Source of the DNA: Clostridia bacterium
GTDB lineage: Bacteria; Bacillota_A; Clostridia; Lachnospirales; Cellulosilyticaceae
Reading direction: 5' to 3'
NCBI GenBank assembly: GCA_029239935.1
Contig: JARBTY010000213.1
Coordinates: 1 to 5,224, forward strand
Length of the DNA stretch: 5,224 bases
Position 1 is the first letter of the stretch, and each line of letters starts with the position of its first letter. The position numbers were made by a program, and so were the translations under genes. The notes below the pieces were generated by a model. It saw nothing but the letters and a program-made list of their open reading frames with translations, searched no databases and was not told the DNA's origin. Shown here in pieces: positions 286 to 5,224 of the stretch.

Positions 286-1293
286 TCATTTTCTAAGTAG
301 CAAATAGATAAAATACGGTGCACCTATCAGTGCGGCCATGATACCGGCTGGAATGCCAGCAGATGCTGTTAAAGTACGGCCTAGAGTATCGGCGAAGAGC
401 AGTAACCACCCCCCTATCAAAATAGCAATAGGAATAAATAGCTGATTTCTAGGACCAATAAGTGTTTTAGCCAGATGTGGTGCCATAAGGCCAATAAATG
501 TAATGCCCCCTGTGACGGAGACCGCAGAAGCAGCCAAGGCGACAGCAGTTATCAGTAGTATAATCCGTTCCTTTTGAATAGATACCCCAAGTCCGATAGC
601 TGCAGGTTCACTGAGGCCAAGGAGATTGAGGCGGCTGGCCTTATACAGCGTAAAGGGAATGAGGATGACTAGCCAAGGGAGAATAGCCCAGATAAAAGGC
701 CAGTCAGCACCCCATATACTTCCTGCTAACCATTTAGCAATAAAATCTACTTTTTCCCGTTCAGCAGATGAAATAAGTACAATCATGATACCAGAAAGCG
801 CAGTTGAAAAACCTATCCCAATAAGGACTAATCTATTAGGCTGCACGCCTTCATTCTTTTTATAAGAAAATGCATATATAATGCCGGCTGTTAAAAAGGC
901 TCCAATAAAAGCAACCAGCGGGAGCAGATAGGTAAAGGCACCTGCTTTTATGGGGAAAAATAAAAATAAAACGGCAATAGCTACCCCAGCGCCGGAGTTA
1001 ATACCGATAATACCAGGATCAGCCAAATCATTACCGGTAACACCTTGCAAAATTGCACCCGATAAAGCAAGGGCCATACCTGCAAGAAGGGTAATGATAA
1101 TACGGGGCAGTCTCACAGAAAACAAAACAAACTCTTCTTTAAAGGTTCCCTCCCCAAGAAGGGTAGGAAGGAGCCTGTCATAGGACAATGAAGAGTAGCC
1201 AAGCCCCATGCTGATAATGATTGTTGCGATGATAAGCAGCGTAAGACTGCCTAAAATAATCCGTTGTTTTTTTATCAGGGATGGATGAATCAT
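286..1293 (-). CDS. fhuG: Ferric-siderophore ABC transporter permease, FecCD family (FhuG-like)
   Basis: This is the second membrane subunit of the siderophore importer. It should pair with the upstream permease to form the channel through which the ferric chelate enters the cytoplasm. The protein has 335 residues, normal for the FecCD/BtuC family, and is mostly hydrophobic with about ten likely membrane helices. Family motifs are in order: RLPR at 61-64, a QGVTGNDLADPGIIG block at 83-97 (with GND where the partner has RNP), the ATPase-coupling segment SEPAAIGLGV at 228-237, and GGITFIGLMAPHLAK at 262-276. Its ATG overlaps the stop of the preceding gene as ATGA (1290-1293), which suggests translational coupling. 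A GGAGG at 1306-1310 lies about 12 nt upstream, rather far, but no better start exists before Met29. The family is certain; the fhuG symbol rests on the FhuD-like receptor and on gene order. Confidence 0.9.
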   Translation of the reverse strand: MIHPSLIKKQRIILGSLTLLIIATIIISMGLGYSSLSYDRLLPTLLGEGTFKEEFVLFSVRLPRIIITLLAGMALALSGAILQGVTGNDLADPGIIGINSGAGVAIAVLFLFFPIKAGAFTYLLPLVAFIGAFLTAGIIYAFSYKKNEGVQPNRLVLIGIGFSTALSGIMIVLISSAEREKVDFIAKWLAGSIWGADWPFIWAILPWLVILIPFTLYKASRLNLLGLSEPAAIGLGVSIQKERIILLITAVALAASAVSVTGGITFIGLMAPHLAKTLIGPRNQLFIPIAILIGGWLLLFADTLGRTLTASAGIPAGIMAALIGAPYFIYLLLRK

Positions 1294-2300
1294 AATAGGT
1301 TTTTACCTCCTTTAAGTACGATTAAAAGGAAGAACGGTAGGCCTACCATGGCGATGATAGCAACTAGGGGTGTTTCGTAAGGTGCATTGAGTGTACGGGC
1401 AATTGTGTCAGCAAAGAGCATAAAAGTACCGCCGCAAATGGCTGACATAGGGATGATGAAGCGGTAATCCGTTCCGGTCATGGTGCGTACCACATGGGGG
1501 ACGATAAGCCCGATAAAGGCCATATTGCCCACAAGAGCAACAGAAGCACCAGCAAGAAGGATAATGACCACAAACAACAAGGCCTTTATGTGAGTGGTTT
1601 TTTGACCAAGCCCCACAGCCACCTCATCACTTAAACTAAGTATTGTAAGCTGCCTGGCAAGTATAAGAGAGACTGCAATACCCACTAAAATGAAAGGTAC
1701 AATGACTTCCAGCTGGCGCCATGAAGTACCGATAATACCACCAGCCGTCCACATAGAAATGTCCTTTGAAAGCTTAAAATAAATGCCAATGCCCTCAGCA
1801 AGGGCTGTCAAAAAAGCAGAAATAGCTGCGCCAGCCAAGATAATACGAAAAGGAGAAAAACCTCCTCTTTTTAAACTGCCAATACCAAAGACCAAAGCGG
1901 CTCCTGCTGCGGCCCCAATAAAGCAGGCAATCATGATACCAAAGTAATTGATAGAAGGCATAAAGGCAAGGGTTACAGCTAAGGCTGCATTGGACCCAGA
2001 AGTTAGTCCTAACAGACCGGGGTCAGCAAGGGGGTTGCGGGTCATACCCTGCATGATCGCGCCAGATACCCCAAGTGCAGCCCCAACAAAAATAGCAGCC
2101 AGTTCTCTTGGAAGACGAAATTCTTGGATGATAGAAATATTTTTCCCAGAGGCATCAGAAGTAAGAGCCAGCCAAACATCACCTATCGTAATGTCAGCAG
2201 CTCCAAAGGCCATTGAGACCACAAACATGCCGATAAATATAATGAGAGCTGCAATGAATTTAAAGATGAAAGGGATGGAATGTTGATTTTTTAGTGTCAT
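1290..2300 (-). CDS. fhuB: Ferric-siderophore ABC transporter permease, FecCD family (FhuB-like)
   Basis: This is the first membrane subunit of the importer, 336 residues, full length for a single FecCD/BtuC-family permease (the E. coli FhuB double-length fusion is not seen). Membrane helices begin at about residue 12. Recognisable motifs are RLPR at 62-65, the signature QGMTRNPLADPGLLG at 84-98, the coupling-helix segment SDEVAVGLGQ at 224-233 that contacts the ATPase, and GNMAFIGLIVPHVVR at 258-272. Only 1 nt separates the lipoprotein stop (TAA, 2302-2304) from this ATG, and its ribosome binding site AGGA (2308-2311) lies inside the end of the lipoprotein gene. The two permeases clearly derive from a common ancestor and presumably form a heterodimer. 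Other ferric or cobalamin substrates cannot be excluded from the permease alone, but the Fur box and the receptor indicate iron. Confidence 0.92.
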   Translation of the reverse strand: MTLKNQHSIPFIFKFIAALIIFIGMFVVSMAFGAADITIGDVWLALTSDASGKNISIIQEFRLPRELAAIFVGAALGVSGAIMQGMTRNPLADPGLLGLTSGSNAALAVTLAFMPSINYFGIMIACFIGAAAGAALVFGIGSLKRGGFSPFRIILAGAAISAFLTALAEGIGIYFKLSKDISMWTAGGIIGTSWRQLEVIVPFILVGIAVSLILARQLTILSLSDEVAVGLGQKTTHIKALLFVVIILLAGASVALVGNMAFIGLIVPHVVRTMTGTDYRFIIPMSAICGGTFMLFADTIARTLNAPYETPLVAIIAMVGLPFFLLIVLKGGKNLL

Positions 2301-2301
2301 A

Positions 2302-3243
2302 TTAGTTTCCTAAAAAAACCTCTTCAAAAAAGGCTAATTGGTCTTCTAAAGTAATAGGGTCACTGAAAGAAGCAGATCTAGCATCAAGTTCAAATACGCG
2401 ATTATTCTTAACGGCAGGAATATTCTTGTAGGTTTCAGTTTCCTCGAATGAATGGTCAGCGTCTGGGTGTTTGCTGAAAATCACATAATCTCCGGCAAAG
2501 TCAGGGAGTACTTCGGCTGAAATCGCATAATACCCGGCTTCAAGAGCTGATTCTTTTACTTTTTCAGGCATTTCAAGCTGCATTGCCTGATAGAGAAGTT
2601 CAGTGCCGCGGGCCCAGTTATCGCCAAATACATAAAGCTGTTTTTCAAAGCTTTCAATGACAGATACCGTAGCATCTTCACCTATTTTAGCTCTGATTTT
2701 TTCGCCTGTACTTTCAGCACGTTTTTTAAAATCATTTACCCAGTCAAGGGCTTCTTGTTCTTTATTAACAAGCTTACCAATTGCAATGTGCTGCTCTAAA
2801 TAATCCAGTTTACCCCAAGTATAGGTTACAGTAGGCGCAATTTCATTTAATTTATCAAGGTTGTTGATATTTGATAAGGCAATGATAAGATCTGGCTCTA
2901 ATTCAATAATTTTCTCTAGGTTCTCATCAGATACTTCTTCAACATCTTTTAATTCTTCTGCAAAACGTGGATTCGTTTTTGACCAAACATCAATACCCAC
3001 GATATTAAGATCTAAGGCGACGGCATTACCAGTAAAACCAGAGAGTAAAATAACCCTTTGAGGGTCAGCTGGTACTTCAATAGGGCCTGTTTCAGACTCA
3101 TATGTAATGGTTTCGGATTTAGTTTCTAAAGGGGTGTCTTTTTCAGTAACGTCGCTTTGACTAGCAGTACTTTGACCGCCGCACCCGCTAATCAGTGATG
3201 CAAATGCCAGAAGGCATGGAATGAACAGATTTTTTATTTTCAT
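2302..3243 (-). CDS. fhuD: Siderophore-binding lipoprotein of the ABC importer (FhuD-like)
   Basis: This is the extracellular receptor that captures the iron-siderophore and delivers it to the permeases. The 313-residue protein starts with a lipoprotein signal: basic MKIK, a hydrophobic core, then lipobox ISGC with the lipidated Cys at 21. A polar Ser/Thr/Glu linker follows to about residue 50. The rest is a class III (helical backbone) periplasmic-binding fold, with the family start IEVPADPQRVILL at 55-67 and EPDLIIALSN at 116-125. The stretch ATVSVIESFEKQLYVFGDNW (191-210) followed by ARG, and later FAGDYVIFS (249-257), closely recall Gram-positive FhuD/FhuD2 hydroxamate receptors. Trp210 and Arg212 match the conserved GDNWxRG element, whose Trp and Arg contact ferric hydroxamates in FhuD2 as I remember it. 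The start has a strong AGGAG (3253-3257), 9 nt upstream. The hydroxamate assignment is from remembered similarity, not an alignment. Confidence 0.88.
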   Translation of the reverse strand: MKIKNLFIPCLLAFASLISGCGGQSTASQSDVTEKDTPLETKSETITYESETGPIEVPADPQRVILLSGFTGNAVALDLNIVGIDVWSKTNPRFAEELKDVEEVSDENLEKIIELEPDLIIALSNINNLDKLNEIAPTVTYTWGKLDYLEQHIAIGKLVNKEQEALDWVNDFKKRAESTGEKIRAKIGEDATVSVIESFEKQLYVFGDNWARGTELLYQAMQLEMPEKVKESALEAGYYAISAEVLPDFAGDYVIFSKHPDADHSFEETETYKNIPAVKNNRVFELDARSASFSDPITLEDQLAFFEEVFLGN

Positions 3244-3245
3244 TT

Positions 3246-4040
3246 TTAGTTTCTCCTTTTAGTTAAGTTATAAGTGACACACATAGGTTTATTTGTTCTG
3301 GGGTCTTGACCAATTACGGCGTCAATATGAAATACCTTTTTAAGTACCTCATGACAGATGACTTCCTCGCAAGTACCAGCTTTTATGATCTCGCCGTCTT
3401 TGAGAGCGATAATATAGTCCGCAAAGCGGGCAGCCTGATTGAGGTCATGAAGCACCATGACAATGGTGCGCTCCTGCTCGGTATTTAACTTTTGCAGCAG
3501 TTCTAAAACCTCTAGCTGATGGGCCATATCCAGATAGGTAGTGGGCTCATCAAGAAAAATAATATCAGTCTCTTGAGCAAGGGCCATAGCAATCCAAATT
3601 CTCTGACGCTGGCCTCCTGATAGGGAATCTACTGGGCGGTATTTAAAATCAGCAGTTCCGGTGACTTCTAAGGCCCAGTCAATAACCTCATGGTCTTTTT
3701 TTGTCAACCGGCCAAATCCGCTTTGATAGGGAAAACGGCCATAAGAAACCAGTTCTCCAACTGTGAGGCCACTGGCGCTTTCAGGGGTCTGAGGAAGAAT
3801 GGCCATTTTTTTAGCAAGCAGTTTGGTATTTTCCTTTGAGATATCCTTACCATCTAAAACAACAGTCCCAGATTGGTGAGAAATAATACGGGTAATCGCC
3901 TTTAGAAGTGTCGATTTGCCACAGCCATTTGAACCGATGATGGTAGTAATTTGTTTATCTGGAATCTCCACATTAAGGCTTTTGACAATTAAGTGTTCAC
4001 CATAACCAATGTTGAGATTGTTTGTATAGAGACGCGCCAT
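3246..4040 (-). CDS. fhuC: Ferric-siderophore ABC transporter ATPase (FhuC/YusV-like)
   Basis: This cytoplasmic ATPase powers the importer and is the first gene of the operon. All nucleotide-binding motifs are intact in its 264 residues: Walker A GSNGCGKST at 36-44, Q-loop Gln84 (LPQTPES), signature LSGGQRQR at 140-147, Walker B IIFLDEP at 160-166 with Asp164 and Glu165, D-loop TTYLD at 167-171 and H-loop His198 (VLHDLNQAARFAD). The LDEPTTYLDMAHQLEVLELL wording is typical of Gram-positive siderophore ATPases such as FhuC and YusV. The start at 4040 is set by a perfect GGAGG (4048-4052) 7 nt upstream. The stop is 2 nt before the lipoprotein gene. In some Bacillota one such ATPase serves several receptor/permease sets, so it may not be exclusive to its neighbours. 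Confidence 0.95.
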   Translation of the reverse strand: MARLYTNNLNIGYGEHLIVKSLNVEIPDKQITTIIGSNGCGKSTLLKAITRIISHQSGTVVLDGKDISKENTKLLAKKMAILPQTPESASGLTVGELVSYGRFPYQSGFGRLTKKDHEVIDWALEVTGTADFKYRPVDSLSGGQRQRIWIAMALAQETDIIFLDEPTTYLDMAHQLEVLELLQKLNTEQERTIVMVLHDLNQAARFADYIIALKDGEIIKAGTCEEVICHEVLKKVFHIDAVIGQDPRTNKPMCVTYNLTKRRN

Positions 4041-4076: not shown

Positions 4077-4095
4077 GATAATGACAATGATTATC
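4077..4095. promoter_or_regulatory. Fur box (iron-responsive operator)
   Basis: The 19 bases match the classical Fur consensus GATAATGATAATCATTATC at 17 positions. In the Bacillus 7-1-7 view, 4082-4096 (TGACAATGATTATCA) differs from TGATAATnATTATCA at one base only. It lies about 7-25 bp downstream of the predicted start of the leftward iron-operon transcript, where bound Fur-Fe(II) would block transcription. It is more than 70 bp from the rightward promoter, so the nucleoside hydrolase is probably not under its direct control. Confidence 0.92.
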
Positions 4096-4108
4096 AATGA
4101 CGCCTTTA

Positions 4109-4137: not shown

Positions 4138-4170
4138 CCAATATCTTAATTGTAAAAATAAGGATTGGTT
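4136..4170. repeat. Imperfect palindrome between the divergent promoters
   Basis: AACCAAT at 4136-4142 is repeated inverted as ATTGGTT at 4164-4170. After one bulged A (4143), five more positions pair (4144-4148 with 4159-4163, one as T-G), around a 10-nt AT-rich centre. The arms overlap the last bases of the leftward -35 and the first bases of the rightward -35. This could be an operator for a regulator acting on both promoters, or a chance AT-rich palindrome. It is outside both predicted transcripts, so it is unlikely to act as RNA. Confidence 0.4.
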
Positions 4171-4197
4171 CACATCAGCATGACAATATGTTACAAT
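4169..4197 (+). promoter_or_regulatory. Extended -10 promoter for the riboswitch-hydrolase transcript
   Basis: A -35-like TTCACA (4169-4174; five of six bases match TTGACA) is 17 bp from TACAAT (4192-4197), which is preceded by TG at 4189-4190, an extended -10. The predicted start is near 4204, about 48 nt before the riboswitch aptamer, giving a leader of about 184 nt before the hydrolase start codon. Confidence 0.7.
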
Positions 4198-4251
4198 AAA
4201 AAAGCAATTGAATATTTAAATCCATAAATCTGCTGGCTTTGATTTGGCAGG

Positions 4252-4286
4252 ACTGGTTCGAGAACTCCCAGTATAAAAAACTAAGG
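4252..4286 (+). promoter_or_regulatory. preQ1-I riboswitch aptamer
   Basis: The sequence has the hallmarks of the small preQ1-I class. Stem P1 forms between ACTGG (4252-4256) and CCAGT (4268-4272). The loop begins TTCG and ends with C4267 directly before the 3' P1 strand, the place of the Cyt that pairs with preQ1 in known structures. The tail is the characteristic ATAAAAAACTAAGG (4273-4286), an A-rich strand that lies in the P1 groove. The pseudoknot P2 is short: G4262-C4281 and A4261-U4282 pair, and C4259-G4285 may close it as in the Thermoanaerobacter aptamer. Ligand binding holds CUAAGG in the pseudoknot, the same bases used by the antiterminator. The motif is recognised by eye; an Rfam covariance search would settle the class. 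Confidence 0.9.
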
Positions 4287-4319
4287 ATTTATAATGCTGT
4301 CATAAAGCGGTATCCTTGG
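4281..4319 (+). promoter_or_regulatory. Antiterminator stem of the preQ1 riboswitch
   Basis: CTAAGGAT (4281-4288) pairs over eight positions with ATCCTTGG (4312-4319), one of them U-G. The left arm is the tail of the aptamer and the right arm is the core of the terminator hairpin, so the structure excludes both the ligand-bound aptamer and the terminator. It should form when preQ1 is scarce and allow transcription of the hydrolase. This is a reading of complementarity, not of measured folding. Confidence 0.7.
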
Positions 4320-4333
4320 GTACGGCTTTTTTT
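4304..4333 (+). terminator. Riboswitch-controlled intrinsic terminator
   Basis: GCGGTATC (4307-4314) pairs with GGTACGGC (4319-4326) around a CUUG tetraloop (4315-4318), with one G-G mismatch and one U-G pair. AAA at 4304-4306 can extend the stem with the first Us. Seven Ts follow directly (4327-4333). With preQ1 bound, the antiterminator arm is trapped in the aptamer and this hairpin should form, stopping transcription 55 nt before the hydrolase start. That makes the switch ligand-OFF. Confidence 0.75.
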
Positions 4334-4352
4334 GTTATAAAAAAGCTGTACC
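4319..4352 (+). other. Long leader hairpin that reuses the terminator 3' arm
   Basis: GGTACGGCTTTTTT (4319-4332) pairs with AAAAAAGCTGTACC (4339-4352) over 14 continuous positions (one G-U), around a 6-nt loop. It takes up the terminator 3' arm and U-run and has no U-run behind it, so it is not itself a rightward terminator. It may lock the read-through RNA in the antiterminated form or protect the 5' end of the mRNA. Confidence 0.55.
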
Positions 4353-4387
4353 TGTTCTCAAATAAGAGAAAAGAAGAGGAAAAGAAG

Positions 4388-5224
4388 ATGGAAAAAAGAA
4401 AAGTTATTATTGATTGTGACCCAGGTATTGACGATTCTTTGGCGCTTATTTTAGCGTTGAGGTCACCAGAGCTAGAGGTTGTTGGTATTACGATTGTTGC
4501 TGGGAATGTTCCAGTCAAACAGGGGGGCGAAAATGCTCTAAAGGCACTAGAAATGGCAAAGGCACTTCATATCCCAGTGTATCTTGGAGAAGCAGGACCG
4601 CTTTCGAGAGAGCTTGTAACAGCTCAGGATACCCACGGCGAAGATGGTGTTGGGGAGTGCTTTTTTGCTAAGACTCAAAAAGCAGAAGTAAAAGAAGGGG
4701 CTGTAGATTTTATCATAGACACCTTAAATCAAAACAAGGAGATATCTATTATAGCCCTGGGGCCGCTGACGAATATTGCTAAAGCCTTGATGAAGAATAA
4801 AGAGGTATTTCAAAAGGTGGATCAATTTGTATCCATGGGAGGCAGCTTTAAAAGTCATGGCAATTGTTCTCCAGTAGCAGAGTTCAATTATTGGGTAGAC
4901 CCTCATGGGGCTGATTATGTTTATAAAAATTTGGGAAGACCTATACATATGGTCGGTTTAGATGTAACAAGAAAAATCGTGCTGACTCCAAATATTTTGG
5001 AGCTGATTAAACGGTTAGGTGGTGACTTGAGTCACTATATTGTAGCTATTACACGTTTTTATGTGGATTTTCATTGGGTACAAGAGGGCGTCATTGGATG
5101 TGTGATCAATGACCCACTGGCAGTAGCTTATTTTATTGAGCCCTCTATTTGCCAAGGGTTTACAGCCTATACAGAAGTTAGCTGTGATGGGATTGCCATG
5201 GGCCAATCTATAGTGGATGAAAAG
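4388..5224 (+). CDS. queK: Inosine-uridine-type nucleoside hydrolase, probable queuosine hydrolase (QueK-like), 3' end outside window
   Basis: The family (IU-nucleoside hydrolase) splits the N-glycosidic bond of nucleosides into base and ribose. The frame is open for 279 codons to the window edge; relatives have about 310-330 residues. The calcium-binding N-terminus DCDPGIDD is at 9-16 (Asp11 and Asp16 matching Asp10 and Asp15 of the Crithidia enzyme). DTHGEDGVG is at 81-89, ALGPLTNIA at 123-131, MGG at 150-152, and the ribose-binding NCSPVAEFN at 159-167 with Asn159, Glu165 and Asn167. The last calcium Asp is Asp242, but the usual HDP reads NDP (Asn241), so the catalytic His is absent. The start follows AGAGGA (4375-4380) by 7 nt. 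A preQ1 riboswitch with terminator precedes it, which argues for release of queuine from queuosine, as by C. difficile QueK, rather than purine or pyrimidine salvage. The family is seen directly; the queuosine substrate and the symbol are inferred from context. Confidence 0.85.
   Translation, partial: MEKRKVIIDCDPGIDDSLALILALRSPELEVVGITIVAGNVPVKQGGENALKALEMAKALHIPVYLGEAGPLSRELVTAQDTHGEDGVGECFFAKTQKAEVKEGAVDFIIDTLNQNKEISIIALGPLTNIAKALMKNKEVFQKVDQFVSMGGSFKSHGNCSPVAEFNYWVDPHGADYVYKNLGRPIHMVGLDVTRKIVLTPNILELIKRLGGDLSHYIVAITRFYVDFHWVQEGVIGCVINDPLAVAYFIEPSICQGFTAYTEVSCDGIAMGQSIVDEK

Follow-up and report, generated by a model that had tools for sequence, protein, structure and literature searches.

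A preQ1-I riboswitch ahead of a QueK-like nucleoside hydrolase gene in a Clostridia bacterium: the probable start of a queuosine-salvage operon

The window analysed here, a whole stretch of 5,224 nucleotides (positions 1 to 5,224 of contig JARBTY010000213.1 of a Clostridia bacterium), closes with a preQ1-I riboswitch aptamer, an intrinsic terminator and a nucleoside hydrolase gene in which the window ends; no gene intervenes between aptamer and hydrolase (Table 1). A promoter-like element ahead of the aptamer may serve the operon and is offered as a lead only. On the other side, a divergent operon of the iron-siderophore ABC transporter type, comprising two FecCD permeases, a binding protein and an ATPase, extends over 286-4040. 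It is preceded at 4082-4096 by a Fur-box-like site, TGACAATGATTATCA, with one mismatch to TGATAATNATTATCA, which we take to be the Fur-box motif. Shuffles gave a mean of 0.04 matches at two mismatches or fewer, at least one being found in 8 of 200.

Table 1. Features of the riboswitch-hydrolase locus, and the dehydrogenase genes found in relatives
Feature	Position	Strand	Basis and details
Possible operon promoter, TTCACA - 17 - TACAAT, extended TG	4169-4197	+	Consensus scan, 10/12 matches
preQ1-I riboswitch aptamer	4247-4290	+	RF00522, model positions 1-45 (full length), 51.8 bits, E 1.1e-8
Aptamer stem P1	4252-4256 with 4268-4272	+	Rfam model; also recovered in the energy fold
A-rich strand and CUAAGG tail of aptamer	tail 4281-4286	+	RF00522
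Antiterminator 5' arm, CUAAGGAU	4281-4288	+	Overlaps aptamer 3' strand; pairs with 4312-4319
Antiterminator 3' arm, AUCCUUGG	4312-4319	+	Same bases belong to the terminator hairpin
Intrinsic terminator hairpin and U-run	4304-4334 (hairpin 4304-4329)	+	10 pairs, -10.1 kcal/mol
Putative queK-like queuosine hydrolase gene	4388-5224, running past the window end	+	PF01156; 279 of 322 codons inside
Short-chain dehydrogenase genes directly behind qrtT in queL-less relatives (outside the window)	L064 9552-10208; L052 9548-10201; L037 2430-3083; L067 9552-10202		

When the whole window was searched with cmscan, RF00522 (PreQ1) was the sole Rfam 15 match at E ≤ 1, and its score stands well above the gathering cut-off of 39 bits. 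The hydrolase matches PF01156 (IU_nuc_hydro) with 297.9 bits against a cut-off of 34.2 (E 1.4e-88). Thus the preQ1-I aptamer, the terminator and the IU-type nucleoside hydrolase behind the switch, all three claimed in an earlier sequence-only reading of this DNA, are borne out by the covariance model, by the ten-pair hairpin with its U-run and by the Pfam match. The terminator was not listed by a mechanical terminator scan of the window, probably because of an internal mismatch in its stem.

The aptamer, the terminator and the alternative pairing all emerge from computation, and the energy calculation places an expression platform (4281-4288/4312-4319 together with 4304-4329) within reach of the aptamer 3' strand. 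Without ligand and without the 5' flank, the antiterminator is part of the minimum-energy form of 4247-4340, the whole having -17.2 kcal/mol; inclusion of the 5' flank switches the minimum-energy fold to the terminator form. For 4215-4340, the fold energy does not stand out from that of shuffled sequences (z -0.33). Of 56 relatives with an aptamer matched by pattern, 12 show CCTT(A/G)G and then five T (13 of 57 leaders including that of the window), the expectation being 0.09 per round in plain shuffles of all 57 tails. A strict terminator scan detected a hairpin with T-run in the leaders of 36 of 61 relatives; by the same scan the C. difficile locus has no terminator, an absence that is weak evidence. 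In 16 of the 61 leaders the aptamer lies 70 bases or less from the start codon, which is too short for the antiterminator/terminator design, and these leaders may act on translation instead.

The likely start of the hydrolase is ATG 4388, some 55 bases 3' of the U-run. A complete protein in the protein collection (P0001) is 100% identical to the window hydrolase and counts 322 residues from this ATG, the length of the C. difficile hydrolase as well. P0001 itself begins at a TTG 24 codons ahead (window 4316-4387); as TTG 4316 lies inside the terminator, that start is very probably a gene-calling artefact. The identity to the C. difficile protein is 73-74%. Among genomes, the nearest relatives by best segment are Clostridium punense (76%), C. 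tunisiense (75%) and C. hydrogeniformans (75%), followed at 74% by C. rhizosphaerae, a Peptostreptococcaceae isolate and C. difficile strain HC132, while proteins in the protein collection reach up to 81%. Some relatives are labelled purine nucleosidase in the sources.

In C. difficile, the hydrolase is the only PF01156 match found in the genome. Its gene has a preQ1 switch on the 5' side and, on the 3' side, genes for a 187-residue membrane protein and then a 229-residue protein, relatives of which the sources annotate as radical SAM proteins. The queK-qrtT-queL operon of this organism was reportedly described by Yuan et al. in PNAS in 2019. Gene order, switch and uniqueness suggest that the PF01156 locus is queK, a label that none of the database records consulted carries.

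The position of the window protein within its family was assessed with a tree of 37 rows, made up of 30 QueK-like proteins chosen from 81, RihA, RihB, RihC and four paralogues. A single branch, found in 90% of bootstrap trees, splits the 30 QueK-like rows from the seven other hydrolases; its support of 89/99 is under the starred level of the tree tool, and the outgroup branches are long. In a residue alignment of 88 rows, the four N-terminal metal-site aspartates are conserved throughout (88/88). The window protein shares Asn241 with 79 of 80 other QueK-like rows, the remaining row having a gap; at this position, which lies before the last metal-binding Asp, E. coli RihA, RihB and RihC and three paralogues have His. 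The one other paralogue in the alignment deviates at both positions, perhaps through misalignment; a further paralogue, L199, is absent from the residue table and the tree, and UriH from the alignment. As the QueK-like rows were picked by similarity to the window protein, Asn241 marks a clade. Taken together, 74% identity, the sole PF01156 match in the C. difficile genome and the tree identify the window hydrolase computationally as an orthologue of the C. difficile enzyme. The earlier suggestion of a QueK-like protein is thereby strengthened, the tree grouping it with QueK-like proteins and outside RihA/B/C.

The histidine before the last metal-binding Asp acts as a general acid towards the leaving purine, protonating its N7. 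This atom is missing from 7-deazaguanines, and queuosine is a 7-deazaguanosine. The exchange of this histidine for Asn241 would therefore fit queuosine as the substrate, since queuosine has no N7 to be protonated. This His-to-Asn exchange may serve as a simple sequence mark for separating queuosine hydrolases from ordinary nucleoside hydrolases. The window hydrolase shares with E. coli RihA, RihB and RihC the PF01156 fold, the DxDxxxDD metal site and the THG histidine. It differs from them in Asn241 in place of His, in Tyr-Trp after the AEFN motif (Ile and another residue in the Rih proteins) and in lying on the opposite side of the tree branch.

As the window ends inside the hydrolase gene, the evidence for an operon with qrtT and queL comes from relatives. 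A qrtT-like gene lies 3' of the hydrolase in 77 of 80 relatives (the exceptions being L041, L051 and L055), and queL lies 3' of it, in the same orientation, in 39. Both genes are present throughout the nine relatives whose identity is 70% or more. In the other 41 of the 80, queL was absent from the locus DNA examined; the neighbour table took 34 of these 41 loci, seven further Streptococcus loci being left out. A search for DNA beyond 5224 yielded no match in plasmid records and no relative among viral contigs.

We consider it highly probable that the window holds the start of a C. difficile-type queuosine-salvage operon under a preQ1 switch. In such an operon, QrtT would import queuosine, QueK would take the ribose off it to give queuine, QueL would convert queuine to preQ1, and preQ1 would pass to tRNA-guanine transglycosylase. 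When preQ1 is scarce, the antiterminator would form and the operon would be read; when preQ1 is bound, the aptamer pseudoknot would hold the 3' strand, so that the terminator could form and transcription would stop. The direction of switching, in which bound preQ1 locks the aptamer tail, is inferred from the proposed pairings, and queuosine is the presumed substrate of the hydrolase. In the same organism, qrtT and queL would be expected just beyond the window.

The hydrolase might also be a general purine or pyrimidine nucleoside hydrolase of the RihA/B/C or IunH type that stands behind a preQ1 switch by chance. It belongs to the same Pfam family, its best NCBIfam models are UriH and RihC, and the solved structures nearest to it are those of pyrimidine or inosine-uridine hydrolases (best E ~1e-50). 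However, the protein falls below all four equivalog cut-offs of the Rih/UriH type, reaching 41-53% of them (UriH 203 of 450 bits, RihC 201 of 382, RihA 196 of 433, ribosylpyrimidine nucleosidase 186 of 459). Moreover, the tree and Asn241 set it apart, and the gene neighbourhood of its relatives is that of queuosine salvage, all of which makes a general hydrolase very improbable. Still less credit can be given to the view that the riboswitch is a relic with no control over the hydrolase: the aptamer is full-length and above cut-off, no gene separates it from the hydrolase, and the antiterminator/terminator design recurs in the 12 relatives described above.

A different composition of the operon is somewhat more plausible, yet still unlikely. 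The locus could hold a queK-qrtT pair without queL, as in the Lactobacillales relatives, or a dehydrogenase in the place of queL, as in some Lachnospiraceae. The 41 relatives without queL in the DNA examined speak for this, as do the four in which a dehydrogenase lies directly behind qrtT. Against it, queL is present in every one of the nine relatives closest in identity, and a complete operon of the C. difficile type continues to be our preferred reading of the window.

The wider distribution of these genes was followed in 36 whole relative genomes (without L018), of which three have queL next to queK and 33 do not; these genomes are not mutually independent. By profile, QueL or a QueL-like protein (>200 bits) is encoded elsewhere in the genome in 8 of the 33. 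QueA is present in 29 of the 36. With 125 candidates scored per genome, a preQ1-I match at E ≤ 0.001 was obtained in 27 of the 29 QueA genomes (24 of the 27 reaching cut-off) and in none of the seven without QueA, an association with a Fisher value of 4e-6 in which kinship is not corrected. Five QueA-less genomes keep queK and qrtT and have a TGT scoring 346-362 bits, compared with at least 510 in 29 other TGT genomes. This suggests that these five use queuine directly; preQ1 sensing would then be useless. Six genomes (G022, G029, G030, G031, G033 and G034) have queK-qrtT with neither QueA nor a preQ1-I match, five of them with the low-scoring TGT; no TGT match was obtained in G029. G006, also without QueA, encodes QueL and QueH together with an ordinary TGT; this genome is perhaps just incomplete.

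Fourteen Lactobacillales (G008, G009, G010, G014-G017, G020, G023-G025, G027, G032 and G036) combine queK-qrtT, QueA, TGT and a preQ1-I match, with no QueL by profile and no close short-chain dehydrogenase. They raise the question by which route preQ1 is reached from queuine when neither QueL nor the dehydrogenase is found by profile. A second preQ1 switch in Lactobacillales was considered as a marker of an alternative lyase and rejected, the next gene being queT-like in the nine loci examined (L111, L113-L117 and L120-L122); all six genes tested behind the second match are PF06177 QueT. The gene behind queK in a Cetobacterium genome encodes a Vut_1 transporter (PF02592; L055 5569-7333). Elsewhere (L123 1275-2849), a preQ1-I match that stays below cut-off at 36.6 bits stands ahead of a QueL-like gene and of the gene for a second transporter of queuosine precursors (TIGR00697, 215.5 bits against a cut-off of 51).

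The dehydrogenase found directly behind qrtT in four queL-less relatives is a short-chain dehydrogenase (SDR) of about 219 residues, from a compact subfamily of about 217 residues containing YxxxK and TGxxxGIG, presumably the motifs of this superfamily; the L064 protein is 82-87% identical to those of L037, L052 and L067. Its occurrence was surveyed in 299 genomes of one family. QueK was found in 23 genomes and QueL (>390 bits) in 17; a weaker QueL-like protein (217-235 bits) and the SDR occur in 15 each. The 23 queK genomes divide into 15 with QueL, two with the QueL-like protein and six with SDR, none having two of these and none lacking all. The genome searches scored a capped number of candidates per genome, at most 10 in one of them, so that rare misses are possible. 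Within queK genomes the exclusion of SDR and QueL has a Fisher value of 1e-5, or 4e-5 without G026, in which SDR was first noticed, kinship not being corrected; across all 299 genomes, 0 shared against ~1.6 expected is not significant alone. The QueL-like subfamily occurs in G172 (C16), G261 (C5) and 13 other genomes, and its gene is not adjacent to queK in the two that bear queK.

Nine of the SDR genomes lack QueK, and in eight of them a QPTR-like gene lies no more than 1.5 kb away. A clustered QPTR-like reading frame was available in seven of these eight, and all seven match PF02592 Vut_1, the family of queuosine-precursor transporters; both SDR-adjacent QPTR proteins tested match the NCBIfam transporter model TIGR00697 below its cut-off. 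In a class sample of 391 genomes, SDR was found in 23, two of which (G026 and G243) are shared with the first sample, and in all 23 it has Q genes within 1.5 kb, a QPTR-like gene in 20 and queK-qrtT in three. Thirteen queK loci of this sample comprise eight adjoining queL, three adjoining SDR and two (L231 and L232) with neither within 1.5 kb. Over both samples, 36 distinct SDR loci (L128-L142 and L201-L221) include 28 beside QPTR, five beside queK-qrtT and three with no Q gene within 1.5 kb (L129, L130 and L137; in L130, queK is ~7 kb off). Dehydrogenases behind the second preQ1 switch of three lactobacilli, only 25-28% identical to this subfamily, were not counted.

This gene context makes it very likely that the SDR acts in queuosine salvage. 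It is quite possible, if a little short of probable, that it is an unrecognised salvage enzyme replacing the radical-SAM queuine lyase QueL. As a guess, it could use NAD(P)+ to oxidise the cyclopentenediol moiety of queuine, after which preQ1 would leave by elimination, and it would then be a candidate lyase without an iron-sulphur cluster. In the open-licence literature, a short-chain dehydrogenase in connection with a queuosine precursor transporter was not found, and neither was QueL2 with queuosine; matches for queuine salvage together with short-chain dehydrogenase were unrelated by title, and a prior mention is possible. The SDR subfamily is more novel than the window locus, and it raises the question whether a dehydrogenase can stand in for QueL.

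The closest known system is the preQ1 operon of C. difficile, in which, according to the accessible part of the source, queK, qrtT and queL follow a preQ1-I riboswitch (PMC11477304). The interpretation offered in the sequence-only reading is supported, neither the covariance search nor the tree having refuted it. Since the arrangement is already known, the window locus adds one more instance to an established system. The two loci are alike in riboswitch class, hydrolase family, length of the protein and the placement of the hydrolase directly behind the switch; they differ in organism and in the terminator, seen in the window locus and not by strict scan in C. difficile. For Enterococcus cecorum, too, the available portion of one paper refers briefly to a nucleoside hydrolase gene with a preQ1 riboswitch in front of it, which it names as a site of prophage insertion (PMC10117131). 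A preQ1 switch before a hydrolase, regarded as unusual in the sequence-only reading, is therefore less so in view of what these partial sources report (PMC11477304; PMC10117131). In the accessible text of a preQ1 review, a word-start search returned none of the terms hydrolase, queK and qrtT (PMC11625349). The preQ1-I switches of queCDEF, queT and yhhQ have the same aptamer and, in the transcriptional type, terminator control, as described in that text (PMC11625349), whereas the first gene behind the window switch is a nucleoside hydrolase. The window locus is very probably a further example of the known queuosine-salvage arrangement, in which the hydrolase recovers the precursor from scavenged queuosine. 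It extends the C. difficile way of recovering tRNA-modification precursors to another lineage close to Clostridium, and its leader provides a terminator-type preQ1 switch open to study.
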